NCBI GenBank assembly: GCA_009829735.1
Contig: CM020618.1
Location: 42,918,878-42,982,877, forward strand
Reading direction: 5' to 3'
Origin: Pyropia yezoensis
Lineage: Eukaryota; Rhodophyta; Bangiophyceae; Bangiales; Bangiaceae
DNA: 64,000 bases
Shown here: positions 28,718 through 58,952 of the stretch, piece after piece
Layout of the letters: the number at the start of each line of letters is the position of its first letter
How positions within the stretch are numbered: the stretch's first letter is position 1
Program-made: the position numbers and the translations under genes
Notes under the pieces: model-generated
What the model was told of the DNA's origin: nothing
The model's input: only the letters and a program-made list of their open reading frames with translations
Databases searched by the model: none

Positions 28718-28732
28718 CTCCCCTCTCCTCAG
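28718..28732 (-). promoter_or_regulatory. E2 polypurine tract
   Basis: On the minus strand CTGAGGAGAGGGAG directly abuts the 3' LTR, the expected plus-strand DNA primer. Confidence 0.75.
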
Positions 28733-29055
28733 TTCCGACCGACCCGGTCGGCCCTGCGAGGGGGCGTGTAAACGCACGTCCGGCGTTGGGGACGCGACTT
28801 GCTGTCCCCCCCCGAGTACGTAACGTGGACGTGGAGGCGGTCAAGTTGACCGCCCCCCCTCCTCAAGCTTGCCCACTCGGCAGCTTGCTCTCCTCGGTTC
28901 TCACCTCACCACCACCAACACATCCCCTTCACCTTCCCCTGGGCCGCCCCACGCTGGGGAGGCCACCCATCTACCCACGATCCGAGCCCCCCTCAACTCG
29001 AGGCGGGTCTCGTGCAGCTGCAACCGCCCTGCCTCTCTCTAACTTGGGGAGAGCC

Positions 29056-30998
29056 ATGGCGATCCAGGGGTTGGAGTCTGACTCCCTGGACGAGCGTATG
29101 GAGGACACCTCTTACGGTGTGGCGCCCGCCGGGACTTCCGGCGGGGGCGCCGCGGTCGCTCCGGGGGATAGGACTCCCGCGTCACCCGATTTGGGTTGGC
29201 GGCGGGATCTTCCCCGGAGGCGGGCCGGGTCATTCCACGTGAGGCCTTGGGGCGGTGGTTCTACCCCGCTTGGCCTCTATAGGAGGAGGGGTTGACTGTT
29301 CTCCGCTGTGGCCGACTTGGCACAGCGATGAGTCGGGTATGGGACCGCCTACGGGAGAAGTATCCCCGTAGGGTCGGGTTCCCTGCCGGCTTCAGGACGG
29401 ACCAGTTTGCCTTCCTGCACGATGACGAAGTCGACGACGTACAGCGGGCCAAGGCCATGTTGGACCGCGGGGGAACTACCCCGGGTCTTGGCGACGTGCC
29501 GACCTTTACGTGGGACGCGGCGGCAACTCGTCCCCCGTACCTTCACGAGGCCGATCCGCACACTCATCACTTTGATGTGCGGATGGAGAAGGACTTCCGG
29601 CGAGGTCCCTACTTGGTGACCTCGGCTCAACTTGAGTTTCCGCAGCAGTCCGCTGCTAGTAAGGAGCAGTACTACCCCAAGAAGCCCGAGTGGTGGCCTC
29701 AAGTTGAGGTCCCCTACGGGTTCCCGGCGTTGCTACCACGGTTGCTCGACCACTTCGGCTCCGTCATGTTGACGGCTAGCCCGGATCACCTGGTGTTCGC
29801 CATGTTGGCAGCCCAGTGGCTCCTCGAGGTCATGTCGACCTGGGTGTCTTGTGTTCAGCGGCGGGGGATGCTCTGGCATCTTCCCCTTCGGCATATACAA
29901 GGTTTGGAACAGCTCACCCCTCAGCTAGTTGCAGAGGGGTGCTCATCAGGACAACTCACTCTACTTGAGGAGATGCTCCGTCTCCATAAGTTCATCGAGT
30001 GGGAGAGCATCGAGCACAAGTTGCGCCGCCCCACCCGCGGGCCCAAGGACGATGGAGCACTTCGCCAGTTCGTATGGGTCGGTCGTGAACTTCACGACGG
30101 CCGTGTGGTACTTCGAGAGGGGCTGGGCATCGGGTACTACCCGTATGCCCCGGGGGTGGGTCTCCAAACTGCGCCGCCCCCGGAAAAGGCCAACGTGATG
30201 GCCGTGCCGGCTCATGAGGACTACCTGCTTCAACCCACTGCGGGGGCCCCGAGTAGGGGCCGCAGTTACACTCGGGCACCGCCACCTCGGCGTGCCCCTC
30301 CGCTTCCTCCTGTCCCCTACCAGCCGCACGGGGACATCCCGATAAGCGTGGCCGTCGAGTCGTCCACCCCGGTGTCCCCCAACTTGGGGGCCACTCTCCT
30401 GACCGTTTATCCCAAGTTGGTGTTACCGGCCACGCCTCTGACCTCAGAGATGATGATCACCACGTTGGTGCGCACCATTTCCTGGTTGGCCGCCTCAACC
30501 GCATCCCTTCAAGTTTCCGAGACTCCTCAACTTTAGGAGCGCGTCCGTACGGCGGTGGCGACCGCGAGTGGCGAGTCGGTGGCGGGGTTCATGACGGCCG
30601 AGTTGGCTCTCATCGAGGCTATTGTGCCCCAGCCAGCCCCACTTGGGCGTGGCAAACGTCGGGCGAGCCGGGCATACTCGCCTCCTCGCCGTCGTCGCCG
30701 TCACTCGCGGCGCTCTCCATCCGTGTCGGAAGACGAGTTGTCTTATTCCGTCTCGGAGTCTTCTACCCCGTCAGAGTCGGAGTCCGTCCGGCGTCTGCGT
30801 CGCCAACTTGCGCGCAAGACCAAGCAGAAGGGTAGCCGCGGTCGTCGCCACTTGCGCGATTGTGAGGGGCGCGACGGTTCCGACTTGGAGCCGCCGGCCA
30901 TGCCGACTGGTGGGGAACGTTATCGGCGGGGGTCGCGCCGCTCGCCTCCACGTGAGGGCGAGGGCCGTGGGGTTGGAGAGTCTAGCATGCATGCCTAG
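29056..30998 (+). pseudogene. E2 antisense ORF (aORF), conserved accessory protein, interrupted
   Basis: This gene lies on the strand opposite to E2 gag-pol, between integrase and the 3' LTR, tail-to-tail with integrase (112 bp apart). A first frame starts at ATG 29056 (acidic opening SLDERMEDTSYG) and stops at 29295. A second frame, entered by 29328 at the latest, runs to an amber stop at 30534-30536 and continues in frame to 30998. Stretches shared with the aORFs of E3 and E1 include YYPKKPEWWPQVEVPYGF, AQWLLEV and QFVWVGRELHDGRVVL. The last 140 residues are Arg/Ser-rich (RRRRRHSRRSPSVSEDEL), resembling SR-type nucleic-acid-binding tails. No known domain was recognised. About 640 codons in total if breaks are ignored. 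Function unknown. Confidence 0.7.
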
Positions 30999-31109
30999 TT
31001 GGCAGCTGCCTTTGTTGTGAGAGAGTGAGGGTTAGGGCTGTAGTTAAAAGCCACTCTGCGTACCACTTCGACTTGAAGCACTCTCTTGGCACTGTTACTC
31101 GGCCTTCCC

Positions 31110-32225
31110 TCACGTTGAGGGGAGGCTGTTAGGGTCCATATCACTCCGGGCACAGTATGCCCAGACCTTCTCAGCGGGAAGGTCCTCCACATATTCCCAC
31201 GTATCATCCTTGGCCTTATAGCCGAACCAACGCACCCTCAACATGAGGCGGTTAGTGTCCTCATCCCATCCGTGGTCGATGAACTTATCGAACACGTACT
31301 CCTGCGGGCCCTGTTTGGCCGCAGGCAGCGAGGGCAGGCGCCACGCTTCCAGCGTACGCGCCCAAGCTGGGTCGCCTGCAGGCGGTGGTGCAACTTTGAC
31401 CACGTCCTGTCCGTTTACTGTGCGGACCCCATCGTCACTTGCGATGGTGAACCGCCGCCCATCAGTACGAAGGACCTGGTACGGCCCCTTCGTCTGGAAT
31501 ACCAACTTACTCCCAGTTGGGGTGTGTGAGTGGACCAATACCCAGTCACCCTGCTCGGGGACATGCTTGGCGTTGCGCACCTTTTTGTCAAAAGTACGCT
31601 TGTAGCGCTTTTGCGCTTTGTCCATCTCAGCCCTGACTTTAGGGATGAGTTTTTCAAGCCTAGCAGCGAACTCCGCCTTACTCTCAGTAGGAGAAGGCGT
31701 ACTGCCACCATCCTCCCTAGTTCGGAGCGGCCGCCGCACGGCGATAGACCGCACGCGACGGGGGGTCACAATAGCGAGGGGTACTTCCCAGGTAGATAAG
31801 TGAACCTGAGAATTGTAGGCAGTCGTAAGAATAGAAATGTATTGGTCCCACGTTTTCACGTGCTCACTCACATAGTGGCGCAGCTGCCGAACGAAAGATT
31901 TGTTGAAGCGCTCCACCTGCCCATTAGTTTGTGGGTGGTAGGGGGTGGCATAGTTTGCCTTAACCCCCAACATATCCAGCACTCACTGAAACAGTACAGA
32001 CGTAAATTGCGGTCCATTGCCCGATAGTGTACTGTCCGGGATGCCATACGCGGCAACCCAGTGATCTAGGAAGGCTGACACGACCGACATGGCCGTGATC
32101 TCTGCCAGAGGGATCGCTCGCGTAAGTTTCGTGAAGCGATCACAGATGACAAGGAGGTACTGGTTGCCCTCCTCGGTCACCGGCAGTGGCCCAAGGATGT
32201 CCATTGCCAACGCGGCAAAGGGCTC
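31110..32225 (-). pseudogene. E2 integrase C-terminal part and chromodomain
   Basis: Continuation of E2 pol after the E3 insertion. It begins in the integrase core with AMDILGPLPVTEEGN, contains the DD(35)E catalytic region (ICDRFTKLTRAIP; the second Asp position reads LSGNGPQFTS, i.e. SGN where the related copies have TDN, so this Asp is lost) and YHPQTNGQVERFNKSF with the catalytic Glu. A TGA at 31983-31985 interrupts it. The C-terminus holds YVFDKFIDHGWDEDTN followed by LRVRWFGYKAKDDTWEYVEDL, a chromodomain-like fold. Stop at 31110. Precise removal of E3 plus one target duplication joins this frame to 41880. Confidence 0.88.
32221..32225. repeat. Target site duplication of E3, left
   Basis: GGCTC, identical to 41875-41879. 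Confidence 0.9.
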
Positions 32226-32797
32226 TGTAGCATCCCTGGCCCCGACTTGGCGCCGACCCGGGACTACAACCAGAGGGCACCAGGTGCCAGAACACGCCCG
32301 CCGTGTGGTGATGGTTGGCGGCCGTGGCCCGTGCCCGGCACTGGGATGCGGTGGACTACGCTATCCACACGTGAGAGAGGGATTTCCGATGGGTTTTTGC
32401 ATACTTGTGAGGGACTTGATTTGAGAGAATTTGAGTGTGAGATTAGTGGGTGGGAATAGAATTAGTAGTGATAGTGGCCCCCGACCTGACGAGGTTAGAC
32501 TCGGGTCGGGGCCACTCGGGGTTATGGGGGGGGCTACCTGGCCAACGTGCCGAGGCTCCCCCAGATGCACGTTAAGAGGGACAGCGAGGCGCCCTTGGCC
32601 CGCGCCCTCAGGAAAAAGACAACTGCGCGTTTGCTTTCCTCTTCCCCGTGTGCACTACCGTGCGTATCTGTTTGCTCTGCGAGCAGGCACGTGAGGCAAC
32701 AGGCATACCATTCTCGTAGTTCCCCTTTCTATGTTACTTGTCCCTTTCCCCCGAGGGATATTGACACGTGTCTGAGAGGATCGAGTTTTATACCACA
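32226..32797 (+). repeat. E3 5' LTR
   Basis: 572 bp, TGTAGCATCCC to TATACCACA. It contains a strong hairpin at 32474-32515 (GTGGCCCCCGACC pairing with GGTCGGGGCCAC). Three differences from the 3' LTR were noted: G/A in gacGagg, T/C in gttaCtg context and T/G near the end. Confidence 0.95.
32474..32515 (+). other. Hairpin in E3 LTR
   Basis: Twelve base pairs with one bulged C and a loop of about 17 nt; present in both LTRs (second copy 41551-41592). It may belong to the R region or transcript end, but this is inference. Confidence 0.6.
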
Positions 32798-32801
32798 TAT
32801 T

Positions 32802-32819
32802 TGGTGGAGCAGCAGGGGA
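32802..32819 (+). promoter_or_regulatory. E3 primer binding site
   Basis: TGGTGGAGCAGCAGGGGA starts 4 nt after the LTR. It is complementary to a tRNA 3' end reading TGCTGCTCCACCA, and identical to the sites of E2, D and E4. The tRNA was not identified. Confidence 0.85.
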
Positions 32820-33008
32820 CATTGGAGTGTTTGAGAAGAGACATTTGGGAGCAGCGGTTGGGTTGTTCCTGTTCTGTCTTTTTCTGTGGTTTCGGAATTA
32901 TTTGCACCCGTTCACGGGAATCCCATTCCTGGCTCTCCAACCCCTCTCTTGTGGTCTGGCGATCTTTGGACACGCAGGCAACTGGACTGTGGCTGTCAAG
33001 AGACCAAC

Positions 33009-34769
33009 ATGGCTACCCTCCCTGGCACGACGGTGCCCGAAGGGGTAGACCCCGCGTCCCTTGACGCATCCCTGGTCACCGCGGGGGACGGTGCCCAACC
33101 CGGCGTTCTCCCTACGGGTGAAGCAGACCTGGGTGTGACATCCGGTAGCGGACTGGAGTCCACAGGCGGCCAAGCACCACCTGCTCCCGTTCCTCCGGCT
33201 GTTCCTCCTGTGGGAGCCACCCCGGGGTCAACGGCGTTTGAGTCCGCTCGCAGCAGACATCTCCCTCCTGTCGGTTCTACTCCTCAACCTCCAGGGATAG
33301 CCCCTGGTGTGTTTACTCCTGGACCCACACATGGCAGCTGGGTGTATACACCTCTTCCTGTGGGCACTAGCGATGCCAGAGGCACCGTTGTGACTGGTTC
33401 TACGGGTCTCCCTGAGACCTCGACTCCTGGGACCGGCCAAGCTTTTCCTCCCCTTGCATCCTATGGGGCGAGGAGCTCCAAGACCGGTAACCGGAGCAGC
33501 CGTAGGCGTCGGCGTCGTCGCCGTCGCTCTAGCACCAGCGAGACCAGTTCCTCCAGCTCTGAGGAGGGATATGATTGGGATGCATCTCCCGGTCCCACCC
33601 GGCGCAGGCTAGTCGAGTTTGACTTCCCTGCCCACCAAGTGGGAGATGCCACCCTGAACAAGGTCACGTATTGGGGTAACTGCCGGCTGGAGAACCAAGA
33701 CCAAGGTTACACCCGGAAGATGGCCAAGAAGATGGCGTCCCTGAAACGGCGAATGCAGCCGAGCTTCGGGGGACATCCTAAGATTTCCGGGAAGAGACCG
33801 GCGCTTATCTTTGCCTTCCTGCGCCGGTTTGTCAAGGCATGCAATGACAACGATGTGTCCGAGGGCAAGGCTCTCTACCTCCTGGTTAACTTCATGACCG
33901 GAGAAGCGGAACAGCGGTTTGCACAGGTTCTACCAGACTCTGCCGGACACATTGTCGGACGTACCGTCGCGAGTTATCCGGAGGCGGTCAACTGGCTCCT
34001 GTCCAACTACGCTGACGCGGACTCTCTGCGTAAAGCAGTCGGCAGGCTGAACCGGGCAACCATGGAAAGACAAGAGACTCCAGAGGCGTTCGCCCGTCGT
34101 GTCCGGGAGATGAGCGATGCTTGTGGCAACGTTTACCCTGAGGACAGGCTCAAGATGATCTTCTCGGAAGGGCTTCCTGAATATCTTCAAGTGGATGCGG
34201 AGAACTACAACCAGGAACATCAAGAACATACCTTCCAGCAGTTGATGGCCTACACCCAGGGCAAGTACCGGCAAGCCAGGGCCCTCCAAGCTCCCATGGT
34301 ATCAACTCCCAAGCCGTTGTCGCGAGTTCGACCCGGACCCGACAAGTATAAGGGAGGTGATAGCCCTGTACCGGTACTCGCAGTTGGCGAGGCCTCACCC
34401 ATGGGGTCAGGGGACAAGTGGGGCGGCTTCGTTTCTAAGGAGCAACCATCCCTGGTCGCCCCCAAGCAAGTCAAGAACCAGCGGTTCCGGTCTTGTTGGC
34501 TGTGCCAGAAGGAGGATCACATGTCCTACCAGTGCCCGACCATTCCCAAGGACCTCCAGGAGAAACTCAAGCGTCAAGGACTGGTGTTTGCAAAGGCGGT
34601 CAACTGGGCTGACCGGCGAGCGCCCTCCAAGATGGACAAGGCACAGGTACATGCAATCCGAGTGGCAACCTTACAGAGCATCACGGAGGCTCTGGCAAGG
34701 GAAGCTCCTACGGACTTCGACCTGGAGACCGAAACCTCTAAGGACTCCTCGGACCCGGGAAACGAGTAG
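33009..34769 (+). CDS. gag: E3 Gag polyprotein
   Basis: An uninterrupted 586-residue protein from ATG 33009 (in the sequence ccaacATGg). The first 190 residues are Pro/Gly/Thr-rich. A basic-then-serine block ([19 protein letters not shown]) follows at about 170-195. The capsid-like region begins near [29 protein letters not shown] and ends with the [19 protein letters not shown] segment. One CCHC zinc knuckle [14 protein letters not shown] sits at residues 496-509 and should bind genomic RNA. The last codons GGA AAC GAG TAG contain the slippery heptamer GGGAAAC for entry into pol. Gag assembles the particle in which reverse transcription takes place. Confidence 0.9.
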
Positions 34770-34797
34770 GGCAGGCGCTCTCCCCAAGCGTCTGCCC
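34757..34797 (+). promoter_or_regulatory. E3 gag-pol -1 ribosomal frameshift signal
   Basis: The heptamer G GGA AAC (34757-34763) lies in the gag phase required for simultaneous slippage, 3 nt before the gag stop TAG. After a 5-nt spacer a 10-bp stem (34769-34778 with 34788-34797, one G-T pair) and a 9-nt loop follow. The -1 frame is open from here into pol. All three elements of a -1 signal (slippery site, spacer, stem) are visible. Confidence 0.8.
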
Positions 34798-37700
34798 GAA
34801 TCTCCAACGGCAGGGTACTTCTACCCGTTCTCCCCTTGCGTACCGGGAGAAAGGACGGCAGTTACCCGCTCAACCGGTAGCCGCCTGGACACCCTGTTTG
34901 TTCAAGGGGACATTGCTCGTCCTGCGTAAAGAAAACCTCAAGATTAATGCTCGTATGCGTGTGGGGGATAGCCTCCCCCAAGCTGTTACGCCGGTGGTTG
35001 ACACGGGAGCCGGACCAAGCGTCATCACTGAGAACCTGTTACCTCCGGGCTGGCGTCGACATGCCTGGAGAGCGCCTACCCGGACCCATATCGTCGACGC
35101 TTCGGGTCAAACCCTACGACCGCTTGGCCGTTTTCCTGTCGCCATCTATGTCAACAATGAACCAATGCTTTTTCCCTTTCTAGTAGTCAAGACCCTATCA
35201 GTCCCCCTCATCCTAGGCTGGGACTTCCAGAAGCAGCATGTCAAGAGCATCCTACCCGGAGAAGGGAAGGTCCAGTTCAACCATGGGTTTGTGTCACCGG
35301 TATTGGAGCATCTGGACGCGAAGGTTCGTGTAGCCAAGAGCAAGAGGGAACGCATCCCACCCTCTACCTTGACTCTCTTCAAACCGGTGCTCCTACCTCC
35401 TCGCTCGGAGACCAAGGTTCAAGTAACGACCCGGATTGCAGGTCAATGCCTGATCTACGGACGTAAGGAATTTCTGGCGAAACACCGGTTATACTTGGCC
35501 CACGGACATCACAAGAAGGTAGAAAGGCACACCCCGTTCTCGGTGCTAATCGTCAACGTGAGCCGGAAGCCAGTAATCCTCGCCAAGGGCACCCGAGTTG
35601 GTACAGCAGAGCCTTTCCGGGGATCCGCCCGTGCTATGAGCAAGGAAGACCTCCTGAACCTGCAACAAGAACTGGCATCCATCTTGACGGCCTTAGACGC
35701 ACCTCCGAAACAAGAGCAGGCTGGCAGCGCTACTCCGAAACCCGAACAAGCACCACCCGGGATGCCGAAGGTCAAGCAAGAAAATGTCCCTCCCGACTTG
35801 AAGGAGGCACTGGAGAAGCTTCTCCAGGAATATCGGCACCTGTGGTCGGGAGAGCTGGGCAAGATGGATGCCACTTTACACCGGATTCAACTCAAGCCGG
35901 AAGCTAAGCCAGTGCACATGCAACCATATCGGGCCGGACCTCATCGCCGGGATGAGATTGAGAAGCAGGTTAACAAGATGCTCAAGATGGATGTTATCGA
36001 GCCGTCTGATGGCGAGTGGGCTTTCTCGGTGGTAGTCGTCCCGAAAACCGGCGGTCACTTCCGTTTCTGCGTTGACTACCGGCGCCTGAACGAGATGACA
36101 GTCAAGGACGTATACCCGATACCCCGGATGGATGATTGCCTCGACTTTCTTGGTGATGCCACCCTCTTCTCGACGCTGGATAGTAATGCCGGTTACTGGC
36201 AGATCCCTCTGGCTGACGAGGACAAGGACAAGACCACCTTCACGTACCACCTGGGACTATTCCGGTGCAAGCGTCTTCCTTTTGGTCTCACCAATGCTCC
36301 GGCCACCTTCCAAAGAGCCATCGACATCATCCTGTCCGGGCTAAGGTGGAGAACATGTTTGGTCTACCTGGACGACATTATCGTTTTCTCCAAGACCCCA
36401 GCGGAACACCTGGAGCACCTTCGGGAGGTCTGGCCCTCCTGTCCAAGGCTGGAGTTACCCTCAAGGCCGAGAAGTGCCACCTGTTTGAGACTGAGGTGGA
36501 GTATCTGGGGCATGTGCTGAGTCCGGGGGAGCTCCGAGTCAATGAGAAGAACATCAAGGCCCTCCGGCATACACGGCAACCCAAAACCCAGACGGAACTC
36601 AAGAGCTTCCTGGGTATGTGCAACGTCTATCGCCGGTTCGTACGGGACTATGCTCTGATTGCCCGGCCACTGACCAAGCTGACCAGCAAGAAGCTTCCCG
36701 CACAACACCCGGTGTTCGACGAGAAGCAGACCGCGGCCTTCGAAGAGCTCAAGAAGCGCCTGACCACCACTCCAGTACTGGCGTTACCCAAGCGGGAGGG
36801 CCAGTTTGTTCTGGAGACGGATGCCTGTGGCGTCCAGGTGGGGTGCTCACTACTCCAGCAGCAACCTGATGGGCACTTTCTCCCGATAGGCTACTACAGT
36901 CGCGTCTTGACTCCAGCTGAGAAGAACTATTCCAAGACCGAGCGCGAGTGCTTGGCAGTCGTCTGGGCTTGCTTCCTGTTACGGCCATATCTTGAAGGAC
37001 AAGAGTTCCTCATCCGGACGGACCACGCCAGCCTAAGGTAGCTGCTATGTATGGACAGCAGTCAAGGAAGTGTCGCCCGTTGGCGCCTACGCCTTTCGGA
37101 GTTCAAGTACAAGGTGTGCACCAGAGCAGGGAGGGAGCACCACTGCGCCGACACCATGTCGCGGCTGGAGACTCCTGCAGCCGATACCGGTCCTATCCCG
37201 GAGGAAATACCTTGCTTCATCCTCCCGAATGTCGGACGTGGCTGGCACGCTCCCCTGTATGAGACACCTGAAGCTCATCAACCGGTGACCATTCACCGGA
37301 TGCTGGAGGCACAACTGACGGACCCTCAATGCTTGGAGCTTCGCCACCAAATGGACCTGAACCGGAACAGTCGTTTCTCCGAGTCTACGGACGGACTCCT
37401 AGTACGGGTGTCACCCTTCGATGGGGCCACTCAAGTCTACGTACCCCGGGGCCTACGAGCTGACATCCTACGCCTGGAGCACTCGTCTCCCCAGGCCGGA
37501 CATCCTGGTATCAATCGGATGTATGCTTCCATGAGACGACACTATTACTGGGAAACCATGGCCAGTGACGTCCATAAGTGCCTGGAGGCTTGTGTTTCTT
37601 GTGCAAGGAACCGGTTGTCCCAGAGGAAGAAGACTTCTAAGCTACGCCTATTCCCTGCGGCGGAGCCCTTTGCAAGCTTAAGCATGGACATCCTGGGGCC

Positions 37701-38856
37701 CCTACCTGAAACATCCAGTGGCAACATATACCTGCTCATCATTTGTGACCAGTTCTCCAAGTTCACTCGAGCAATCCCGCTGAGGACCATCACGGCTCTG
37801 GATGTCACGTCAGCCTTCTGCGAGTACTGGATAGCTGCCTACGGCCCTCCAGACACCGTCTTAACCGACAATGGTCCCCAGTTTGCATCCCTGTTCTTCC
37901 AAGGAGTCTGTGACCTGATGGGCATCAAGAACTTGTACACTACGACGTACCATCCTCAAACGAACGGCCAGGTGGAACGATTCAACCGGACCCTAGTAGA
38001 CATGCTACGGCACTACGTGGAGGAGCACCAAGAAGACTGGGACGAGCTCCTGGCTGTCCTCACTCTAGCCTACAACTCCCGAGTTCACCGGACAACGGGG
38101 GTCGCTCCACTCGACTTTGTCACCCCAAGGCGGCTGACCAACTTCTCCCTGGAAAGGATACCAGACGGTCTCCAGCCTGCACTGAAGCCAGGTCCCAAGG
38201 CAAAGGATGAGTTCCTGGAACAACTGAAGCTCCTGCTCCCAAGAGTCAAGGAGTCAGTCTCGAAGACCCAGGAGCGATACAAGCGGGGCTATGACAAGGG
38301 CGTTCGGGAAAAGAACAAGGAACTGGGTGGTGGCGACTGGGTTTTTGTGGACAACCATAGCAAGACCCGGGGGAAGCTGGACTCGAAGACGGATGGACCT
38401 TATGAGATCCTGAATACGGACGGTTGGACCTTTCTTCTAGACGTGGATGGCTCCCCGTACCGCGTGAGCAGCGACCATGGCACCCGAGCTCCACCGCCAA
38501 GCCAACGGGACTTGACCCGGCGCAAGCGGGCCGCAGTACCCTGGCTATCCCAAGAAGAAGGTCGGGAATATGTCTACGTCAAGTTTGTGGACCATGCCTG
38601 GAGAGACGGACGCCTGTACCTGCGAGTACGCTGGTTCGGTTTTAACCCGGCAGATGATACCTGGGAACCCTCAAACCGGCTACCCATCGCGGATGTCTGT
38701 GCCTACACGCGACGGAACGGGATAGAGGGCACTCCAGTGGCCAGAGCCGGCAAGATTCTGGAGTCGGACTCGGAGGAGGACCAAGAGGATGGGGCCAACC
38801 AAGACCCTCGGGACGAGCCGAGTTCATCCGCAACGGATGCGGAACAAGAGGATTGA
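34760..38856 (+). pseudogene. pol: E3 Pol: protease, RT, RNase H, integrase, chromodomain; two breaks
   Basis: Pol is read in the -1 frame after gag and has no good ATG of its own. In order: retropepsin with [11 protein letters not shown]; reverse transcriptase with [40 protein letters not shown] and the catalytic [10 protein letters not shown]; RNase H with VLETDACGVQVG and EKNYSKTERECLAVVWA; integrase with the HHCC finger (HSSPQAGHPGINRMY...CVSCARNR) and the DDE core (MDILGPLPE, LTDNGPQF, YHPQTNGQVERFN); and a chromodomain with YVKFVDHAWRDGRLY and LRVRWFGFNPADDTWEP. A one-base deletion near 36429 shifts the frame within RT after the YLDD motif, and an amber codon at 37039-37041 interrupts RNase H at a position that is probably Gln. 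Apart from these the gene is complete to TGA at 38854-38856. Confidence 0.92.
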
Positions 38857-39001
38857 GAAGAAGGGAACGGGCATATCAAGGAGAACACGCAATACAAGCA
38901 TGGAACAATCAAGGAAAACAAGCACCCGCTCGGGCAACGCTTCTCTCCGCCTCTTCCCTCCTCGCCTTTCCCAAGACCTTCACCCTCCTTGCCTCCAACT
39001 A

Positions 39002-41152
39002 CTACTCCCGGCGCGGACGCTGAGCCGCGGGAGTGTCCTCCAGCGCTGCCTCCGCGGCACGACGGGAACCGGAGGAAGACGGGATGACGTAGTGCGGTGG
39101 ACGCGGTGCATCCCGGTATGACGCCATCGGAGTAGTACCGGTAGTTGCCGGGGGCTCCCGCTCATCCAGATATGCCCGTCGGCGCCCCTGGAAGCCAGTG
39201 AAGGTTTCTGACCACTGCTGGGCCAAGCCATGCCGCGTCAAGGTCGCCAGAAGTTCGCCAACCACCGGGCTGTTCGACATCTGGCCGCTGTCCGCGCAAG
39301 CAAACACCCGGTCGACCACGTTGTTCAAGACGCTGGCGTAAGTACCCAGCACCAGGGAGGACCCAACGCCTTCGACCTGCACCGGAAGACGACCCAGCTG
39401 GTCTTCAATCATACCGACGTCGTACTGGTCGCATGTCGGACCACCTTGGATCAGGTACCAGTCAGGCACCCGGAAGCGGGTAAGGCGCAGAGTCGGCGCC
39501 GGAATCTCGAACCGCCCCGAGGATGACACTACCGGACGGTCCACAACGGCCCCAGAAACCGGAGTACCCAACTCCAGCGGAGGCACAGCGCCGCCGGCGT
39601 TGGAAGAAGGCGTCCGAGGCAGAGCGGCCGGAGTAGTCGGCGTCCGTACGGCCACTCCCAGACTCGCTGCGGACAAGCGCGGTGCTGGAGGAGCTTGAAG
39701 TACCGGCACAGCCGGAACAGGGCGCAAACGCGCCGGTGACGGTTCAGGCGAGGCCACCGGGGCGACAGGTGCAACAGGAGGAAGCGGAGCCGCCGCAGAC
39801 GCCCGACCGACCGCCGCGGCCCATCCCGACTCTTGCACCGGCGGCCCAACTGGCAGAAGATCAAGGGCGGCCGGGGCAGGAAAGCTACCTAGCTGCGGCC
39901 ACGCCGGAAGCGGCGTCGCCAGCTGCACCTTGGCCGGAGAAGACTGGTAGACCACCTGCGCCCAACCGAAGCCATCCCGACGCGGGCGGTTCTGGTCGGC
40001 AATCGCGTTCAAGAAGTTCCGGTCATGCACCGGCACCAGACGCCGGAAGTCAATCATCGCCCGGAAGAGCCCCTTGTACTCTTCGTCCTGGCTGCACAGG
40101 AAGTCGACGGTCAACTTGTCGACAATCCAGACCATCAGGAGGTCAGGGAGAAACCAATGCCGGTTGGACACCAAGACCTCGTGAAGCCAGTGGTTGGCCG
40201 CCAAGACTGTCATCTCGGACGTGTACATCATGTACGGGATCGAGTGGAAGAAGCCCTTGACCGACGCCTGAGTCAAGGCGTCCAAGAAGTACCAGGTGAA
40301 AGGGATGCTGGAAGGAGCAAACCCGACCGGGATCTCGACTTCCTGCTGCTGCGGGATGACCTTGGGGTAGTACGCCGCCCGGTTAGCCTTCTCCAGCTTC
40401 CAGAACTCCTGATGGTTGCAGCTCACGAGGAAGTCACGCTGACGCCCGCGTCGCTCACCCTGCTCCCGTGCCGGTGACAACTTGGAGTACTTCCGGGTAA
40501 GGAAAGGCGGCTCCAGAGCGACCATGCTCGGACGGGGGTCGCAGTTCAGGCTCCCCGACCCCTTGAGCGCCTCGTCCCAGACCTTGAGCGCCCGGTGGAC
40601 CTACCCTTCCTCCTCCGGCCACCGGAGGACGGACGCGGACACGCGACGCTCGGTCAAGGGTAGATCCAGCACCAGCGCGAAGGGGAGATCCTCCAGACGA
40701 GCAACCCAAGAGGAACCCGAGAAGCTCTGGGAGCGGTCTTGTGCCAGGCGCATCTGGTCCGCCGTGTGAAGACGAGCCTTATCCATCTCTGTCAAGACCC
40801 CGCGCTGGAGTTCCTTGCGCCAGAGGTCCAAGCAATCCTGCTGGCACTGGGCCGCGCCGGCGTTGCCGACCACCGTGGAGTAACGCCGGGCCGCCAGAGG
40901 GTCCTGCCCAAGAAGCATCTCCGGGAGACCCACCGGGGGGGTCTCGACCGGGTGCATCACAGAAGCCGGGGGAACCCGATCCGTCCCCGCCGTGGCGACC
41001 GGCGCCGACATCGACACCCGAAGAACCGGAGGCAGGAGAGGGGCGCGACTACCCGAGATCTCCTCCGCAACACTCGCCGCCGGAACCACGGGCCCAGCTT
41101 GGATCTCGGAACTGGACATGACGTCCAGACTCCGGGGGAACGAGAGGGCCAA
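39002..41152 (-). pseudogene. E3 antisense ORF (aORF), one amber codon
   Basis: On the strand opposite to gag-pol, tail-to-tail with integrase (145 bp between stops). A frame from ATG 41152 (or 41119) has 183 codons, an amber at 40601-40603, then continues in the same frame for another 532 codons to 39002; total about 716 codons. Shared features with the E2 and E1 aORFs are DLPF near the amber, YYPKVIPQQQEVEIPVGF, then LAANHWLHEV and a W-rich continuation. The middle is a long Pro/Ala-rich linker, and a C-terminal folded-looking segment starts PTLRLTRFRVPDWYLIQGG. The final residues include DTPAAQRPRRE. No recognised domain, no zinc knuckle, no obvious membrane span. Its promoter could lie in the 3' LTR read in reverse (151 bp upstream). 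Function unknown. Confidence 0.75.
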
Positions 41153-41287: not shown

Positions 41288-41302
41288 CTAGGGAGGGAGC
41301 TA
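41288..41302 (+). promoter_or_regulatory. E3 polypurine tract
   Basis: ACTAGGGAGGGAGCTA immediately precedes the 3' LTR; the purine core is AGGGAGGGAG. Confidence 0.7.
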
Positions 41303-41874
41303 TGTAGCATCCCTGGCCCCGACTTGGCGCCGACCCGGGACTACAACCAGAGGGCACCAGGTGCCAGAACACGCCCGCCGTGTGGTGATGGTTGGCGGCC
41401 GTGGCCCGTGCCCGGCACTGGGATGCGGTGGACTACGCTATCCACACGTGAGAGAGGGATTTCCGATGGGTTTTTGCATACTTGTGAGGGACTTGATTTG
41501 AGAGAATTTGAGTGTGAGATTAGTGGGTGGGAATAGAATTAGTAGTGATAGTGGCCCCCGACCTGACAAGGTTAGACTCGGGTCGGGGCCACTCGGGGTT
41601 ATGGGGGGGGCTACCTGGCCAACGTGCCGAGGCTCCCCCAGATGCACGTTAAGAGGGACAGCGAGGCGCCCTTGGCCCGCGCCCTCAGGAAAAAGACAAC
41701 TGCGCGTTTGCTTTCCTCTTCCCCGTGTGCACTACCGTGCGTATCTGTTTGCTCTGCGAGCAGGCACGTGAGGCAACAGGCATACCATTCTCGTAGTTCC
41801 CCTTTCTATGTTACCTGTCCCTTTCCCCCGAGGGATATTGACACGTGTCTGAGAGGATCGAGGTTTATACCACA
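41303..41874 (+). repeat. E3 3' LTR
   Basis: 572 bp, nearly identical to 32226-32797, followed by the GGCTC target duplication at 41875-41879. Confidence 0.95.
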
Positions 41875-46486: not shown

Positions 46487-46789
46487 ATCAGAAGTGTCAC
46501 CCGAATGAACTCCCGACTGAGTCGGGGTGGCCTGTGGCCCGCCCGCACTTCCAGTCCTGCTGGCTTGAGGGACCTCTAGTCCCTCTGCGACCCCTGGTAA
46601 ACCTACCTGTGTCTAACCAGTATTCGAAGGCACTGAAGTACGTGCGTCACCCGTGTACTCCCCAGACGACGGGGGGTCCGAACCGGCCATGTTGGCTAAC
46701 GATCGGTATGACACGGTCCAAGTCCACCGTTCCTCTGAGACAGAGGGCCCCCTACACCCGGGTGCACCCGGAGGTAAAGTTCACCCCTG

Positions 46790-46807
46790 TCCCCTGCTGC
46801 TCCACCA
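46790..46807 (-). promoter_or_regulatory. E2 primer binding site
   Basis: Minus strand TGGTGGAGCAGCAGGGGA, two nt from the 5' LTR; identical to the E3 site. Confidence 0.85.
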
Positions 46808-46809
46808 AA

Positions 46810-47278
46810 TGTGGCAAAAACCTCTCACACACGCGACACCCAAGTTGGGGCGGTGCACAAGGGCTGCCTCCCGTGTCGGGTGTACCGGAAGAAGTGCAAG
46901 TCGCACACACTCTATCCCTGTTGTGGGGCAATCCCCCCACTGACAAACAAGAAGATGGTGTGTGGTCCAACAGTGTCTTGGTCGGGACGGGGAAGCAAGG
47001 CCAAGCCCCGCTGTCCCTCCCCTTATCCCCCCAGGGTCCCCTCAGAATCTCGCCACTCAGAATCTCCCACCCCAGCACCTGCCCACCGGGCCACACGAAA
47101 ATTCAAGACGATAAATGCAGAAAACCCTCAAATCCAAGTTGGATTTACTACTAAGCTAACTATCCCAAACTTAGGGAATACGGACCCAAATGCAGGGGGA
47201 GGAACGGGTCAGGCTAGTGGCCTGCCGCCCCTTGCATGGCACGTGTTGGCCCCCTACCTGGGGGTCAATACTGCCACA
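46810..47278 (-). repeat. E2 5' LTR
   Basis: 469 bp, TG...CA ends; differs from 28249-28717 at two positions (C/G near 28282 and G/C near 28510 of the other copy). Confidence 0.93.
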
Positions 47279-47283
47279 TCTGC

Positions 47284-50987: not shown

Positions 50988-51113
50988 CTCGACCCACCTG
51001 TAAAGGCAAGAAAGAAAAGGTACCAAGGGTCACAACCCAACCACAGAGCACACGACCAAGAAACCACGCAACAAAAGGAGAGGAGGTTCCACCAGAAGGC
51101 GCAGCGAATCCCC

Positions 51114-51131
51114 TCCCCTGCTGCTCCACCA
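51114..51131 (-). promoter_or_regulatory. Element D primer binding site
   Basis: Minus-strand TGGTGGAGCAGCAGGGGA, the same as in E2, E3 and E4. The 5' LTR is expected from 51134 rightwards. Confidence 0.8.
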
Positions 51132-51133
51132 AA

Positions 51134-51600
51134 CGTGGTGGTTCTCTGGGCGTACGCCCACACCAACGGGGTACCTTATCCTCCTGAAGGAGATGGTGGG
51201 GAACCCGGGGTATAAACCCTGGAGTCAGAACCGCCGGAACGTAAAGCTCCACGCGAAGGTGGAAGCGTCCGGGACGGGGAACACGAGGGTAACGCAAGGT
51301 TGATTTTTTGTGAGGGGGAAGCAACGGGCACGGCCCCACGCGCAGATATCCCTCTTTGGCCCGCCGGTCCAGGGCCCGCTGTGGGACCCCGGAGTGCGGG
51401 CCAACACTCCCCACACTAAACACCCAATCAAAACACTCAGAACCCTCCAACACCTCTCTGCACGCAAAACACGCTCAGTGGAGGGATCTCACTAAATCTC
51501 GGCCAGATTGGGGCGGAAGTAGCCCGCGCTAGGGAACTTCCCTTCACTGGCCAGAAGGCCAATTCCAATCGGGCGGGCGTAATCGCTCTACCCGATGTTA
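51134..51600 (-). repeat. Element D 5' LTR, right limit not determined
   Basis: Sequence adjoining the primer binding site must be LTR. Its inner end reads CGTGGTGG where TGTGG would be expected. I found no second copy in the window (3' end of D is lost, and E1 lacks a recognisable LTR), so the outer end is a guess. Confidence 0.4.
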
Positions 51601-51739
51601 TCTTATCTCCCCCCCCCCATTCATGGGGGGATCCAGCGAGGATGACGTGGCGTGCCCCTCCCGAGGGAAGAGCGACCCCCTCCTGCCCCCGATTGGTCAG
51701 GGGCAGAGGTCGCCACGATCCGCCTCCCCCTGAAGGGGG

Positions 51740-52404
51740 ATGCCCCTAGCCCGAGGGGTGCGGTAAACCCCCACACATCGAAGGCTTCGTCGAGGGCGGC
51801 GGTAAGGGCGTAGATCTCCCCCGCCATCGCCGACCGTACGACCTGCTTACACTTGCGGCTACCGTAGGTAAGCACGTGGCTGCGTCCCGACCCATCGCAC
51901 AGCAGGACGACAAACCCCACCTGAGAGGACAGGTCTTTGTTGCCAGCGAACGACGCGTTAGCATACGCCCGGATGCGCAGATTGTCCACGTCGAGCCCGG
52001 GATACAGCAGCGCCATGTTGCGTCCAGCTTCGGCCCGCTTGACCAGCGCGTTGTACTCCCGGAAGGCGTCGTGCCCAAACCCCGGCTCTGTTACCTGCGC
52101 CAGCGTGTTGATGCCACAACACAGGTCAGGGCGGGCATGTGCCAACCGGGCAAGAATTGCCCCCGCCGAGATGAACGCCTTGAGAACAGCGTCATTTGGC
52201 AGGGCGGAATACCGGTCGGTGGAGACTGGCTGGTCCAAGGTGATGGTCCGCCGTGAACCCGGATTCGTTTGGATAGAAACGCCCACAAACTCCATCTTGT
52301 CAAACTTGCGCTCCTTGGCCTCGAACCTCTTGAGGGACCACTCAGTCTCCTCCTGGAACTGCCGCTTGCCCGCCATCATCAGGTCGTCGACAGCGGCGCG
52401 TTCA
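51740..52404 (-). pseudogene. Copia-like RT / RNase H fragment
   Basis: The minus strand encodes a 220-residue segment without stops. It starts just at a VDDLMMAGKR motif (the catalytic DD of copia-type reverse transcriptase), continues with the RT thumb region and ends with a copia-type RNase H: RIRAYANASFAGNKDLSSQ and VRSAMAGEIYALTAALDEAFD. Upstream it is fused in frame to the antisense of E1 gag, which is a chance product of the junction at about 52405. No other part of this element is here. It sits exactly between the D 5' end and E1. Confidence 0.7.
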
Positions 52405-52410
52405 ATAACG

Positions 52411-53162
52411 TTTTCCAAGAGGAGGATGAAACCGAGACCACCTTTTTCCGGCGCGTCCGCGACGCAAATGCACTCTGCGAGTATATACATAGTGCGAGCC
52501 AGCTTAAGGGCCGCTTTATGCAACGGGTCTGGTGGGAGGTACGGACTGATGTCCGTGAATTTAATACACCAGACACGCCCATAGAGGCGTTGGTACGCTA
52601 TGCTCAACGCAAAGGCGACATATGTCGCCGGCGCAACGAAGAGCTGCGGGCCCAATGGTCCTCAGATGCCGCGGAGCGTCGGGTTCAGCGCAATGCCTCT
52701 GGAGACATTGCAGCGGGGGTGGCTACTACCCCCGGCGGTTCCCCCGTGCCTTCGTTTTATGAGGAGAAGGCCAAATTGGGCTCTGAGGCGAAGTCCCCGG
52801 CTGATATGCCGGGGAGGGAGCGTTTCAATCGCTACCGCTGCTTGGTTTGTAATAGCCATGAGCATTTTACGCGCCACTGTTCCGACCTTAGGGCCGTGAC
52901 GCGGGCAAAGTTTAAGAAAGCCCGTAAGGAGCGCGCACGGATTGAAGGCCGTACCCCGCGGGGCACGGCGGGGACAGCGCAGTCCATAGCACTTGTCACT
53001 GAGGGGGGCCCTTCTGGCGCCCCTGAAGAGGGGCCTGGCCCCCACGGGAATACCAAAGAGTCAGAGGACTCTTCATCTGAGGATACCCCCTCCTCAAAAA
53101 ACGATTATGGGGGAGGCCTGATGAGGATTATTCCTCCCCCGGGGAAGAGGATGTCGTGTTGA
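52411..53162 (+). pseudogene. gag: E1 gag, C-terminal part
   Basis: About 250 codons corresponding to the C-terminal 40% of D Gag, beginning EEDETETTFFRRVRDANAL and containing the zinc knuckle CLVCNSHEHFTRHC. It is almost identical to D Gag over its length and ends at the same TGA. The capsid region and N-terminus are absent. Confidence 0.85.
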
Positions 53163-56100
53163 AACGCATCTTACCCCGGCCTCATGGGGTGAAGCGTAAG
53201 ATGATCCGCCCTAAAGGGAAGGATGAAGCCAAACAAGCAGCTCGGATGGTGGCATAAGTGTCACCACCCACGGCCTATCAATTAGCCGAACGGCTTTTTA
53301 ATACTGAGGGATATGAATGGGCGACGAGGCCCATCCTCGATACCGGGAGTGGCCCTTCGCTCGTCCGGAAGCAGGCCTTACTTCGGGGGTTCCCAATGGA
53401 GCCCCTGGGAGACCTGGAAACATTAAGGTTTCATGATGAGAACGGCGGATGCATCCCCATAGTGTGAAGCGTCACCCTGGGGGTCTGTGTGGGACAACAC
53501 GTCTCATACATATCCTTTGGCGTGGTTCCGAATATGTGCGTTCCTGTTATCTTGGGGAACACATTCGTGGACCACGAAACTAAGCGGATTAACTCGGAGG
53601 ACCAGACGGTCACCCTCTTATCGGGGGAGACCGTCCCCGTCCTGCGGGGGGTTCAAAAGAACCCCCGCCGCAAGCCGAATAGGGAAGCGGTGTGTGCGTG
53701 TTCCCGTGGGAGGAGCGCCCGCCTGGTCTTTACCCAAAAGACGCTTATGCGTCCGGGCACAACAGCGCACGTTCAAGTGCGTGGCATTTCTCAAGGCCAC
53801 GGATACATCCGTGGCAAGAGCACATTGCACTGCATTCATGGAGCGCAACTGGCCGAGGGGCCCGCCACGCTTAAGCCTGGCCAGCCTACTACGGTACAGG
53901 TTATGAATCCAAGTAAGCGGCCGGTACGCTTACGTGCCGGCATGGTCATCGGACACATTCCTGTGTTTGATGGCTTCAGCCAAGAGGCTTCTACCGAAGA
54001 ATTGCAGGATCCGGAGCCAAAACCGGCTCCGAAAGAATCCTCCCTCGCCCCAGGTATAGACCTGGGGAAGGTGCCCGAAGGCCTACGAGCTAAGCTCACG
54101 GCGCTTTTAGAGAGATATAGTTCTCTTTTGGATGGCACCCTCGGGACTATTAAAGAGACGGCACACCGTATCCGGCTTAAGCCAGGAGCGGTCCCCGTCC
54201 GACAACATCCCTATAAGTCTGCCCTTAGGTCCCGTCTAGTGGAAGAGAAGCAAGTCCGATTAGTGGACTCGCTCGAGGTCATAGAACCTTTCCCACGGGG
54301 AATTGGCTAGCCCCGTGGTAATCGTCCCCCAGCCTGGGGGCGGTAAACGGTTTTGCATTGACGAAATGACGGTGAAGGATGCATATCCTATCCCTCGCAT
54401 GGACGAGTGCTTACATTCACTCGGGAACGCCAACGTCTTTTAGACGTTGGATTGTAATGCTCGCTACTGGCAACTACCAGCAGCCAAGGAGGACCGGCCG
54501 TTAACGGCCTTTACGTGCCACTCTGGCACTTGGCAGTGCAAGCGCCTCCCTTTTTGGGTTGTGCAACGCGCCAGCCACCTTTCAGCGCGCCATGGACATG
54601 ATCCTGGCAGGCGTGAAGTGGCAGATATGCCTGGTCTACTTGGATGACGATATTGTCTTTTCCAAGCCGGCCGAGGATAACTTAGAGCACCTTGAGACGG
54701 TGCTCTCCCTTCTTAAGGCCCATGGGGTTTACCTCAAGGCCAACAAGTGCCACCTCTTTCAAGGGGAGGTCGACTACCTCGGCCATGTCATAAGACCTGG
54801 CCGCGTTCTCGTAAACGAGAAAAATACGAGAGCGCTACGAGGGTTGCAATACCCTCGTACTCAAACCCTGATAAAAAGCTTTCTGGGGATGTGCGGCGTC
54901 AGTCGGCGCTTCGTACGGGACTTCGCCAAAGTAGCGAAGCCACTAACGGCGCTGGCGAGCACCAAGCTTCCTACGAAGCTATCTCCACCCACAGAGGTGG
55001 AGAGGAACGCTTTCGAAACTCTACGGGGGTTGCTTTTGTCACCCCCCGTGTTAGCGATTCCTCCGATGAGCGGCCACTGTATAGTGGACGTGGACGCGAG
55101 CTATGAGCAGCTCGGCTGTTGTTTACTACAACAGCAACCCGACGGGGAATACCTCCCTGTAGGGTATTACTCCCGGCCGTTGAATCCGGCCGAGAGAAAT
55201 TACCACGTCACCGAGATTGAAGCGTTCGGTGTCGTATGGGCCGTGACACACCTACGGTCCTACGTTGAAGGGGAGGAATTTGTAATACGGTGCGATCACC
55301 GTGCCCTTTTGTCGGTGCTGGCTAGAAATAGCCCAAACATACGAATTAACCGTTGGCGGCTTCGGCTGTCTGACTTTACCTACGAACTCCGGTATAAACC
55401 GCGGGCCGACCATAAGGTGGCCGACGCTTTGTCACGCTTGCCCACGGACGAGCCTGACAATGCTCCTATAGATGAGGACCTTCCGGTCCTCGCCACGCTG
55501 ACCCGGTCTGCTCAGGCTTTGGCCGGGCGGAGCGAGAAGCATCGCCATTTGGGGCCCATTGCGGTAGAGGAGCTTATAAAAGCTCAGGCTCAGGACATCT
55601 TCTGCTTGGAACGGCGGAAGGAATGGGAGTCGGTACCTCCCCCTGACCCAAAAAGGGCCAGGAAGGCTTTCTTCTTCGAGAACGAAGAAGGAATACTATG
55701 CCGGAGGTCCTTCTTCCTGGACGCCACTCAGGTGGTGATCCCTACATCTCTACGTGAACGTCTGAAGACGTACCACCATGAGTTACCTTTGGCGGCCCAT
55801 CCTGGTGCTCGCTGGATGTACGCCACGCTGAGGCGTGGGGTCTACTGGCCCACCATGATTGTAGACGTGTACAAACCCGTCTCCCAGTGCACGAGGTGTG
55901 CTCGGAGTAGGCTGGATGAGCGTAGGCGTACGTCTACGCTCAAGCTATTCCCAGCCAACGAGCCCTTCGCCAGCTTGGCGATGGATACTCTCGGACCCTG
56001 ACCCGCTTCTGAAAAAGGTAACAGGTTTATACTTGTGATGGTGGACCGTTTTAGTGAGCTCACCCGGGCGGTCCCCATGAAGGAGATTACCGCGGTGGCA

Positions 56101-57153
56101 GTGGCCTCGGCCCTTATTGACGTCTGGGTAGCGTCTTATGGCATACCCGACTCAACGCTGACCGATAACGGTCCGTAGTTTGCTTCCGTCTTTTTCCAGG
56201 GGGTCTTCGGACTCGTAGGGGTTGAGGCGAAGTATACGACGCCTTACCACCCCCAAACAGATGGGCAGGTGGAGCGATATAATCGCGCTATTATGAGGCA
56301 GCTCCGGGTTCATACCGCGCAGCACCCAAAGGAGTGGGACCGTTATGTCTCACTCGTCACAACGGCCTGTAACACTCAAGTGCATTCTAGCACTGGGCAG
56401 GCACCCCTCATGTTTGTGGGCCCAAGGCGGCTCCAAACAATGGGGGTCGAGCGCCTTCCGAAGCTCCGTCCCCTTCAGGAGAAGGAGGACGTGGGCGAAG
56501 GCAAGGACGAGGACTCCCAGACCGCAGCCTTACAGTTTGTGGAAGACTTGAAGAGCATTATCCCCCAGGTGCGTAAGCACCTGGCCAAGGCGCAGGAGGC
56601 GTATAAGAAAACCTTTGACGCCACTGTCGCGGAGAAGAATAAGGACCGACGGGAGGGGGACTGGGTTTTCCTGGCCTCCCATACCCGTAGGCGGTCTAAG
56701 CTCGCTCATAAGAGCGTGGGCCCCTACATGGTCTTGAGGACCGATGGGCAACGTTTCACTGTGGAGACACCTTCAGGGATCCGAACGGTTACGAGTGACC
56801 ATGCCACTCGTGCCCCGGCACCCCAAGCAGGCCATCCTGCCTGGGCACGTGCCGAGGCAACACGAGCCAACTTTAAAGTGGCTCAGCCCTCCCCGAGCAC
56901 AGGGGATGGCAGAGAGTACGTGTTCGAGAAGTTCGTGGACCACCGCATTAATGCGGAGGGAGCGCTTGAATTACGCATACGCTGGTTCGGCTATGGCCCC
57001 CAGGATGATACCTGGCGGCTAGCAACGAATTTGCCGGCTGAAGCCGTGCGAAAATATTGCAGAAGAAGGAAGCTTAAAATTCGGGTTACCCCGAGTCGCA
57101 TCTTCTTTTATGCAACGGCACTAAGAAGTAAGGGGCAAAAGCTTTTACTCTGA
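53150..57153 (+). pseudogene. pol: E1 Pol: protease to chromodomain, several breaks
   Basis: Order: retropepsin PILDTGSGPSLV, linker, RT ([35 protein letters not shown]), RNase H (VDVDASYEQLGCCLLQQQ), integrase finger (HHELPLAAHPGARWMY...CTRCARSR), DDE core (TDNGP, YHPQTDGQVERYNRA) and chromodomain (YVFEKFVDHRINAEGA, RIRWFGYGPQDDTW), ending at TGA 57153. Breaks: TGA at 53465-53467, a frameshift near 54295, deletion of the YRxLN part of the RT core motif, amber at 54441-54443, frameshift near 54555, TGA at 55999-56001 and amber at 56176-56178 (expected Gln). This copy supplies the integrase and chromodomain that D lacks. Confidence 0.9.
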
Positions 57154-57265
57154 TGGAAGCCGTCTTTACATGTCCTCACGCGGACCTACGCAAACATGGC
57201 CCCTCGGGGTAAACTCCTATTGAAAAGAAGCAAAGCGCCCCGGCTCAAGCCGGGGAGTACAACCC

Positions 57266-58952
57266 TCAATACCTCCGATAATGGGGGGATAAAGGGGGGT
57301 AGGTCCCATACCCGGGAGATCGGTTCGGACCTGCCTGGGACTCCTCCCCACGGTCGGTACCCGAAGAGCGTCCACCCGCTGAAGCGTGGGCCCAACCATA
57401 TGCGGCTCCCGCGGCCTCTCCATAAGGAGTGGCCGGTGACGAAGCCTGACCCCGTAGTGCCTGGGTGTGGAGGGCTTGCATGTCCACCAGGGCCCGCGTC
57501 TCAGAAGTCGCAACTCCTAACTCACGACGCATACGCGTCGTGAGATTCTCCGCTGACAGGTCCGCTAAAGCGGCCTGGCGTTGGGGAGGAGAGGCACCCG
57601 CCAACACGCCAGCCATGTCGTTGGCCAAGCCTGTATAGGCTCGGAGTAACGCCATAGTCAATACTGACTGGGTGGCAAAGGTAAACTCCGCCGGGAGGTC
57701 CTCACCAAAGGAGGCCCTCATCCCGAACAAAAGTTGGGGAGACATAGTGCCCCCCACCTCCAGACGAAGTTCGGGGTTTCACCGAAAGGGTGAAACCCTC
57801 GGGGGGGCAGCCAGACGGTTACCCCCATAACCCGCATCAAGGCCAGCTCGGCCTCGACCGGGAGCTCCCCGGGAGGAAGCCCCACCCCGGCCTTTCCAGG
57901 CCGAGGTCGCCGCGGGTTGCCCCGTGATGGTTCCTGCGCCAGCGCGGGGAGCTCCTGCTACCGGCGGCCGGGCTGGGTCACAGCGGATCCGGTCGGATCC
58001 CCAGAGGGAGGAGCCCCCTCCCGTATGGGAGGGACGCTCTCCGGGATTGACAACCTCCCCCAACTCTGGGAAGAGCCTTGGGCCTTCCCGGCACATCTGC
58101 ACCTCGGGGTTGGAGACCCGAGTGGATGCGGTAGCACCCTCACCGTAAGGGAGGGTCGCGATGTCAAGCCCCTTCATAAGGAGCAGCCGCTGATCCCCGG
58201 GGGAAAGCTCCCGGGAGACCAAGACGAGTCCTCGGTGGCCGCCTTGATCGCGGAGGCGCTCGTCAAATACGAGCGACCTCACCCGCCGAAGGAGTTGAAG
58301 GGCCTCATCAAAGAGACCCGCCTTGGCAGAGTCCTCCTCTTTAAAGAGGAGGGAAGTGTCCAACGAAGAAAGAGCCTCAAGAAGGGGCTCGTTCAAGAGC
58401 CATAAATGGCCATTAAACGTAACGGCGGACAAAAAGATGTCCGCCACCTCCACCAACCAGGAAGTGGAGGCCATGGCACTCCTCCGAACCCCCTAAAGGG
58501 GAGCAGACAAGAAGACTACCTCGTAGGAGGAAGAACGACGGAAGACGGCACGCCATTCCCCGTGGGACCTCCAATGAGGACCACCACGGGGGCACGGCCG
58601 GGTAGAGCCCCCCCCTCATCGGGGTGGGGACGTGATGGTATTCCTTCTGCTCCCCATTCATTAGGGGTCCAGGAAATTCCCGTAGGCGCCACTCCGCCAG
58701 AGCGCCCCGGTTATAATACCCGGGGTCGTCCAGGCCGAGAGTGGGAATGGGCCCCGGGTAGCACCGGAGGTCAGTGCATGGTCCCTCCCCTGTAAAGAGG
58801 GGACCCGCCAGTATCTCCTCGACCCCCTTAAGGAGGTCTATGTCGATCCGACCCATGTAAAAGGGTAAGTCCGATGGCAGCACCTCCGACACGGTATAAA
58901 CCGTGCCGTACTGCATGCGCAGGTTGCGCCAGATGTTAACCATCGGGAGCAC
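57266..58952 (-). pseudogene. E1 antisense ORF (aORF), broken
   Basis: Minus-strand gene tail-to-tail with E1 integrase (112 bp apart). The first part (58952-about 58460) contains SDLPFYMGRIDIDL and YPAVPPWWSSLEVPRG. After a frameshift the second part (from 58474) reads STSWLVEVADIFLSAVTF, HLWLL and GLVLVSRELSPGDQRLLL. A TGA at 57779-57781 interrupts it, and the same frame continues to 57266 with SPQLLFGMRASFG and a helical segment. Position, orientation and these stretches match the E2 and E3 aORFs. About 560 codons if the breaks are ignored. An upstream extension through the minisatellite region on the same strand is possible but uncertain. Confidence 0.65.

Follow-up and report, generated by a model that had tools for sequence, protein, structure and literature searches.

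Antisense accessory genes of long terminal repeat (LTR) retrotransposons are best described in flowering plants, where Tat/Retand elements such as maize Grande (gene23), rice RIRE2 and Silene Retand (TRP28, PF04195) carry antisense open reading frames (aORFs) of the type named aORF-3R (PMC7264820, PMC11963269). According to the available text of these two sources, the plant genes persist in numerous copies and in different families, with no known function; the gene23 protein is nuclear and its gene has its own promoter, and TRP28 is predicted to bind DNA (PMC7264820, PMC11963269). Here, we describe a comparable arrangement in the red alga Pyropia yezoensis (genome of 107.5 Mb), in a window of 64 kb, by which we mean the whole stretch analyzed (contig CM020618.1:42,918,878-42,982,877). 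Three elements in this window, E1, E2 and E3, each carry a long ORF antisense to gag-pol and tail-to-tail with integrase. Repeats, chiefly LTR retrotransposons, make up 48.0% of the P. yezoensis genome according to the available part of PMC7423979.

As far as the plant aORF-3R are described in the sources at hand, they share with the red-algal aORFs a long ORF antisense to gag-pol, located between pol and the 3' LTR. The Boty element of Botrytis and Sclerotinia is of the gypsy type. In the description available, Boty is a non-plant LTR retrotransposon with an aORF between pol and the 3' LTR, and it is to this description that we liken our elements (PMC7264820). Retand is given in the accessible text as a non-chromovirus restricted to flowering plants (PMC7264820, PMC11963269), whereas the host here is a red alga and the integrase C-termini are chromodomain-like. 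HBZ of HTLV and related retroviral proteins, in the portion of the source available, are products of an antisense transcript that the 3' LTR controls (PMC10186651), which is an analogy of arrangement only; HBZ is described as nuclear in the accessible text of PMC11963269. The arrangement is of a kind already known; as far as our searches show, what is new is the protein family, its host group and its occurrence in chromodomain lineages. The red-algal aORFs are best read as analogs of the Grande and Retand aORFs rather than as demonstrated homologs.

The first-pass annotation had placed a long aORF in three Ty3/gypsy elements of the window, which it read as chromodomain lineages; the three aORFs were upheld, with gaps between the integrase stop and the aORF of 145 bp (E3), 111 bp (E2) and 112 bp (E1). 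Its coordinates for E2 (29056-30998, plus strand) stood and those for E3 (39002-41152) become 39002-41119 when counted from the ATG; for E1 (57266-58952), the end at 57266 was right but the start lies further out, at 59141. The features are as follows.

39002..41119, minus strand: E3 antisense ORF, 705 codons from the ATG plus the stop; the window copy has a single in-frame stop
29056..30998, plus strand: E2 antisense ORF; the window copy has a single frameshift and two in-frame stops
57266..59141, minus strand: E1 antisense ORF, broken in the window copy
37042..38856, plus strand: E3 integrase with a chromodomain-like C-terminus (Pfam on 37051-38853: H2C2 2.4e-17, rve 5.5e-12)
31110..31982, minus strand: 3' part of the E2 integrase, chromodomain-like (Chromo 2.2e-4, 21.5 bits, under the cut-off)
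56179..57153, plus strand: 3' part of the E1 integrase, with chromodomain (Chromo 8.9e-6, 26.0 bits, over the cut-off of 25.1)
32222..32797, plus strand: E3 5' LTR, 99.3% identical to 41299-41874
41299..41874, plus strand: E3 3' LTR, separated from the antisense ATG by 179 bp
46810..47278, minus strand: E2 5' LTR, 99.6% identical to 28249-28717
28249..28717, minus strand: E2 3' LTR, separated from the antisense ATG by 338 bp
38857..39001, no strand assigned: E3 spacer from integrase stop to aORF stop, 145 bp in 30 of 32 copies

The location between pol and the 3' LTR is established with LTR pairs for E3 and E2. The aORFs of E1 and of E4, a fourth lineage with the same tail-to-tail layout, lie antisense beside integrase in elements whose 3' LTR is not delimited; in the E4 class, the gap to the aORF match was 87-93 bp in 13 of the 25 integrases having one. 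From the chromodomain C-terminus of its integrase, the E1 host element can be classed as a Ty3/gypsy chromovirus. The Chromo matches of E3 (1.8e-4, 21.8 bits) and E4 (8e-4) are, like that of E2, under the curated Pfam cut-off (25.1), and all three fall at the position expected for a chromodomain.

All three window copies of the aORF are disrupted by stops or frameshifts. Intact copies are present elsewhere in the genome, with products of 624 aa for E1 (loci L042 and L048), 647 aa for E2 (L071) and 705 aa for E3, and the product of one E3 copy (L003) aligns over its full length to window positions 41119-39005 by tblastn. Intact E1-E4 products span 596-705 aa. The copy lists were ranked by similarity, so the counts are lower bounds tilted to intact copies. 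The E3 type was represented by at least 85 rows, 9 with in-frame stops and 46 listing 779 aa as the open frame. Of the 32 distinct copies read, which were top-ranked and biased to intact ones, 25 were free of internal stops and indels. At least 101 rows were of the E2 type, two of them with stops (open frame of 724 aa among the matches listed), and 64 have identical scores (875.1 bits) and match the window piece at 92% identity, suggesting that one E2 subfamily amplified very recently. The E2 copy in the window falls in a different subfamily, 92% identical to that one. For E1, at least 25 of 150 rows reached 53% identity or more, several being pieces of one copy (open frame of 792 aa among the matches listed); for E4, at least 34 of 77 rows, some of them pieces, top the ranking at 67% identity or more. 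When one locus per family was compared with 300 first-order Markov sequences, the open frame exceeded their maximum in all five families, E1-E5 (E3, 761 versus 583; E1, 792 versus 396; E4, 653 versus 506; E2, 724 versus 452; E5, 468 versus 415).

By sequence comparison, the antisense products of E1-E5 form one protein family. In blastp, with the database size fixed at 5e7, E-values were down to 2e-39 between E1 and E4, 8e-15 between E2 and E4, 9e-11 between E1 and E2, and 0.05 between E2 and E3. Profile comparison with hhalign aligned E2 to the E1/E4/E5 profiles over 274 columns (P 1.8e-22) and E3 to the remaining family profiles over 152 columns (P 1.9e-7, probability 93.7), in line with the first-pass proposal of one protein family across three lineages. 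The E3 alignment scored 61.7; none of 60 column shuffles scored above 22.8, and reversal gave 16.3. Searching the window with the intact E2 protein likewise retrieved the aORFs of E3 (1e-4) and E1 (4e-16). The family's conserved core of ~300 residues is flanked by low-complexity termini, of which the C-terminal one is Arg/Ser-rich in E2. A core motif of approximately YP-x2-P-x-WW-x2-(V/L/Y)EVP-x-G is found in E1, E2 and E4, and WLVEV-like and GL-x4-PY stretches come after it; the E3 core is without WW. Among the short stretches noted at first pass, the profiles align the YYPK plus EVEIP/EVEVP/LEVP stretch and the VGREL/VSREL pair. For WLxEV, WLLEV of E2 matches WLVEV of E1, but WLHEV of E3 falls eight columns off in the best alignment, and the significant E3 alignment does not reach DLPF; neither the WLHEV match nor the proposed DLPF correspondence between E3 and E1 is supported.

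The E5 product, of 341 aa, is essentially the core alone, and its motif has CP in place of YP and other deviations. At least 22 nearly full-length rows of E5 (7 with stops) were found at 84% identity or more, and its repeat is at least 2.4 kb long and has 19 copies (one at L072, C3:23181200-23183600); no integrase was seen within 1 kb downstream. A sixth family, with an open frame of 665, was visible among the E5-search rows alone.

In E1-E4, purifying selection acts on the antisense frame. For E3, we used 32 distinct sequences from 39 loci covering the ORF. Variants present in at least two copies comprised 32 nonsynonymous (N) and 68 synonymous (S) changes, distributed 14/20/66 over the codon positions (omega, the dN/dS ratio, ~0.21), and those within the core (aa 180-390) comprised only 2 N and 26 S (omega 0.03). 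Singletons gave N=141 and S=88 (omega ~0.7; singleton versus shared contrast, Fisher p 7.8e-7) and probably arose mostly after insertion. The integrase C-terminus of the same copies, taken as a positive control, had a shared omega of 0.29. Omega was low in just one of E3's other five frames, a sense frame sharing third positions (0.27); since such a frame is also depressed, what settles the strand is the intact ORF together with the homology, not the count alone. In E2, aORF dN/dS was 0.23 and 0.41 (window copy versus L071: dS 0.191, dN 0.043, positions 31/24/89, p 3e-12). Values of 0.15-0.50 were obtained for E4 (L066 versus L069: dS 0.845, dN 0.128; L066 versus L070: dS 0.240, dN 0.063), and omega was 0.26-0.51 in 19 of 20 E1 rows, three of which duplicate a locus. 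The selection on this frame postulated in the first-pass annotation is thus seen as dN/dS well under 1 in most comparisons.

These low omega values in E1-E4 indicate that the protein, beyond DNA or RNA, mattered during amplification, and its preservation suggests that the elements use it for spreading. The same data bear on whether the antisense RNA is the functional product, regulating the sense RNA through dsRNA with the ORF being incidental. Such transcript roles are discussed for other elements in the available text of PMC7264820. However, the third-position excess and low omega in the aORF frame leave a codon-level constraint that this explanation does not account for, the open frames exceed chance and the products are homologous across lineages, which makes it very improbable.

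We propose, with a probability of roughly 0.45, that the aORFs are genuine accessory genes of one family, whose product is a separately transcribed nuclear protein that acts on element DNA or chromatin and is capable of acting in trans. A gene in antisense orientation needs its own mRNA. By analogy with Grande gene23 and Retand TRP28, we infer that antisense expression is independent of gag-pol and that the role is nuclear, regulatory or chromatin-linked. The gene would have a transcript of its own, started at an antisense promoter within the 3' LTR or next to it. The protein would be nuclear and would act there on the DNA or chromatin of its own element, possibly by affecting transcription, by relieving silencing or by contributing to targeting jointly with the chromodomain integrase. 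It may also serve sister copies in trans, and if the protein is available in this way, copies lacking the gene can persist.

The main rival to a nuclear accessory protein remains a particle or ribonucleoprotein cofactor, which would join Gag particles or the pre-integration complex and contribute to assembly, RNA packaging or nuclear import. The layout of a disordered, a helical core and a disordered region would suit such a cofactor, as would the basic C-tail of E2 and the resemblance between the constraint on the aORF and that on integrase, whose dN/dS was similar in the same E1, E2 and E4 pairs. On the other hand, the 8 aORF proteins compared have no similarity to Gag, for which the sense frames of E2 and E3 were covered (blastp best E 0.43-0.46, at chance level), and antisense expression would break the link to Gag-Pol stoichiometry; we consider this role unlikely. 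The location between integrase and the 3' LTR would also fit an Env-like protein placed antisense, but this is barely credible given the antisense orientation and the absence of any transmembrane-like stretch by hydropathy in 8 of 8 E1-E4 proteins (maximum KD19 1.54).

Among the matches listed, an antisense relative was detected downstream of 25 of 47 E4-class, 4 of 4 intermediate and 10 of 27 E1-class integrases, and none was detected for 22 of the 47 and 17 of the 27. This pairing drew on 78 of 114 integrase rows (36 rows at 48-50% identity being omitted), 73 of 227 E1/E4 aORF rows and 22 of 118 rows for E5. Sixteen of the 22 E4-class rows without an aORF reach the integrase C-terminus. The aORF-less relatives may have lost the ORF, depend on it in trans, carry a more divergent ORF or be truncated elements; their number hints at action in trans. 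It is also compatible with captured host cargo that has no role for the element, as is E5, with its core-only product and no integrase found nearby. We nevertheless hold host cargo to be quite improbable: selection is visible among element copies, i.e., during amplification, the family spans lineages whose integrases (E1, E2, E3 and E4) are only 38-52% identical, and no cellular homolog with a known domain was found.

Four observations weigh against the accessory-gene proposal. In the tree of the aORFs, which are 19-37% identical between lineages, deep-node support is only 34-61 and the E1+E4 grouping found for the integrases (support 97) is not recovered; strict co-inheritance with the element is therefore not established, and the aORF history may be one of common descent with the element or of exchange of the module. 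The remaining 6 of the 22 aORF-less E4-class rows do not extend to the C-terminus of integrase and may come from elements that are truncated. One young E1 pair (L042/L044) has an aORF omega of 0.94. Finally, loci L011-L040 were picked by aORF protein similarity, which biases the singletons (omega 0.69 versus 1.03 for integrase). A bolder version, which we regard as doubtful, is that the aORF is a portable module of at least four chromodomain Ty3/gypsy lineages and of the apparently integrase-free E5, providing a diffusible nuclear function needed by aORF-less sisters, in a helper/dependent economy around a protein unknown outside these algae.

A search of 5.8 billion protein sequences yielded seven relatives (P0001-P0007) among the top 7,999-8,000 candidates scored; P0006, from a JGI source and ~38% identical to E4, may come from another species. 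No significant aORF match was found in Pfam (isolated E-values of 0.013-0.44 alone), in NCBIfam, PHROG or viral contigs, or among PDB sequences (chance-level rows alone), and the aORF proteins had no significant match to an enzyme family. The lack of a match to the Tat-lineage aORF protein, also stated at first pass, persisted: the TRP28/PF04195 model gave 0 matches at E<=10 in 9 and 10 members, in searches lacking a positive control. In the whole genome, PF04195 gave 0 matches, within the sensitivity limits of hmmscan and with a sub-cut-off E. coli match as the sole control signal. The TRP28 residues G21, P25, L34, P46, N47 and F55 had a best ungapped fit of 2-4 of 6 in 16 proteins, never rare relative to shuffles (4 of 6 in three E3 proteins, equaled by 23-32 of 200). 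The plant mobile domain (PMD, PF10536) is common to gypsy elements and DNA transposons; it had no match in the genome, and its control was likewise without a match. A structure model of the aORF product had a mean pLDDT of 48, with 92 of 502 residues at 70 or above, mostly within 161-290; its confident part is predicted to form helices and then a beta-hairpin, for which no structural match was found. Among the papers listed from the open literature searched, which leaves subscription papers mostly uncovered, none describes these red-algal aORFs.

The spacer between the convergent stops of E3 is unusually poor in common variants, with 2 shared versus 28 singletons in 32 copies, in contrast to the 179-bp interval between the ATG and the LTR, with 18 shared and 27 singletons (p 0.0013). 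The 3'-end signals of both strands may lie in this spacer, and no stable RNA fold common to the copies was detected.

The elements of the window are nested, with E3 sitting within E2 and E2 within an E1-like pol fragment. The gag-pol of the window E3 copy is broken into frames at 32835-34766, 34742-36517, 36217-37038 and 37042-38853. The sense part of E1 is on the plus strand and extends to the integrase end at 57153. The E1-like fragment interrupted by E2 is a second one (27288-28248 plus 47279-49881, minus strand), 90-95% identical to E1 (52392-55846, plus strand) and terminating near 27288; it and E1 stand head to head, their 5' sides adjacent and ~2.5 kb apart. An open frame at 25852-26334 (minus strand) ends in a possibly copia-like stretch and has no Pfam match.

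The presence of an unrelated-looking protein at the same place in red-algal elements, selected in four lineages, implies that the arrangement may have arisen repeatedly and is probably useful. With many near-identical copies in a genome of ~108 Mb, together with relatives in which no ORF was detected, the requirement for the protein in cis or in trans is testable. If the bolder version given above is true, the genome would harbor a retrotransposon helper/dependent economy that centers on one antisense-encoded protein.

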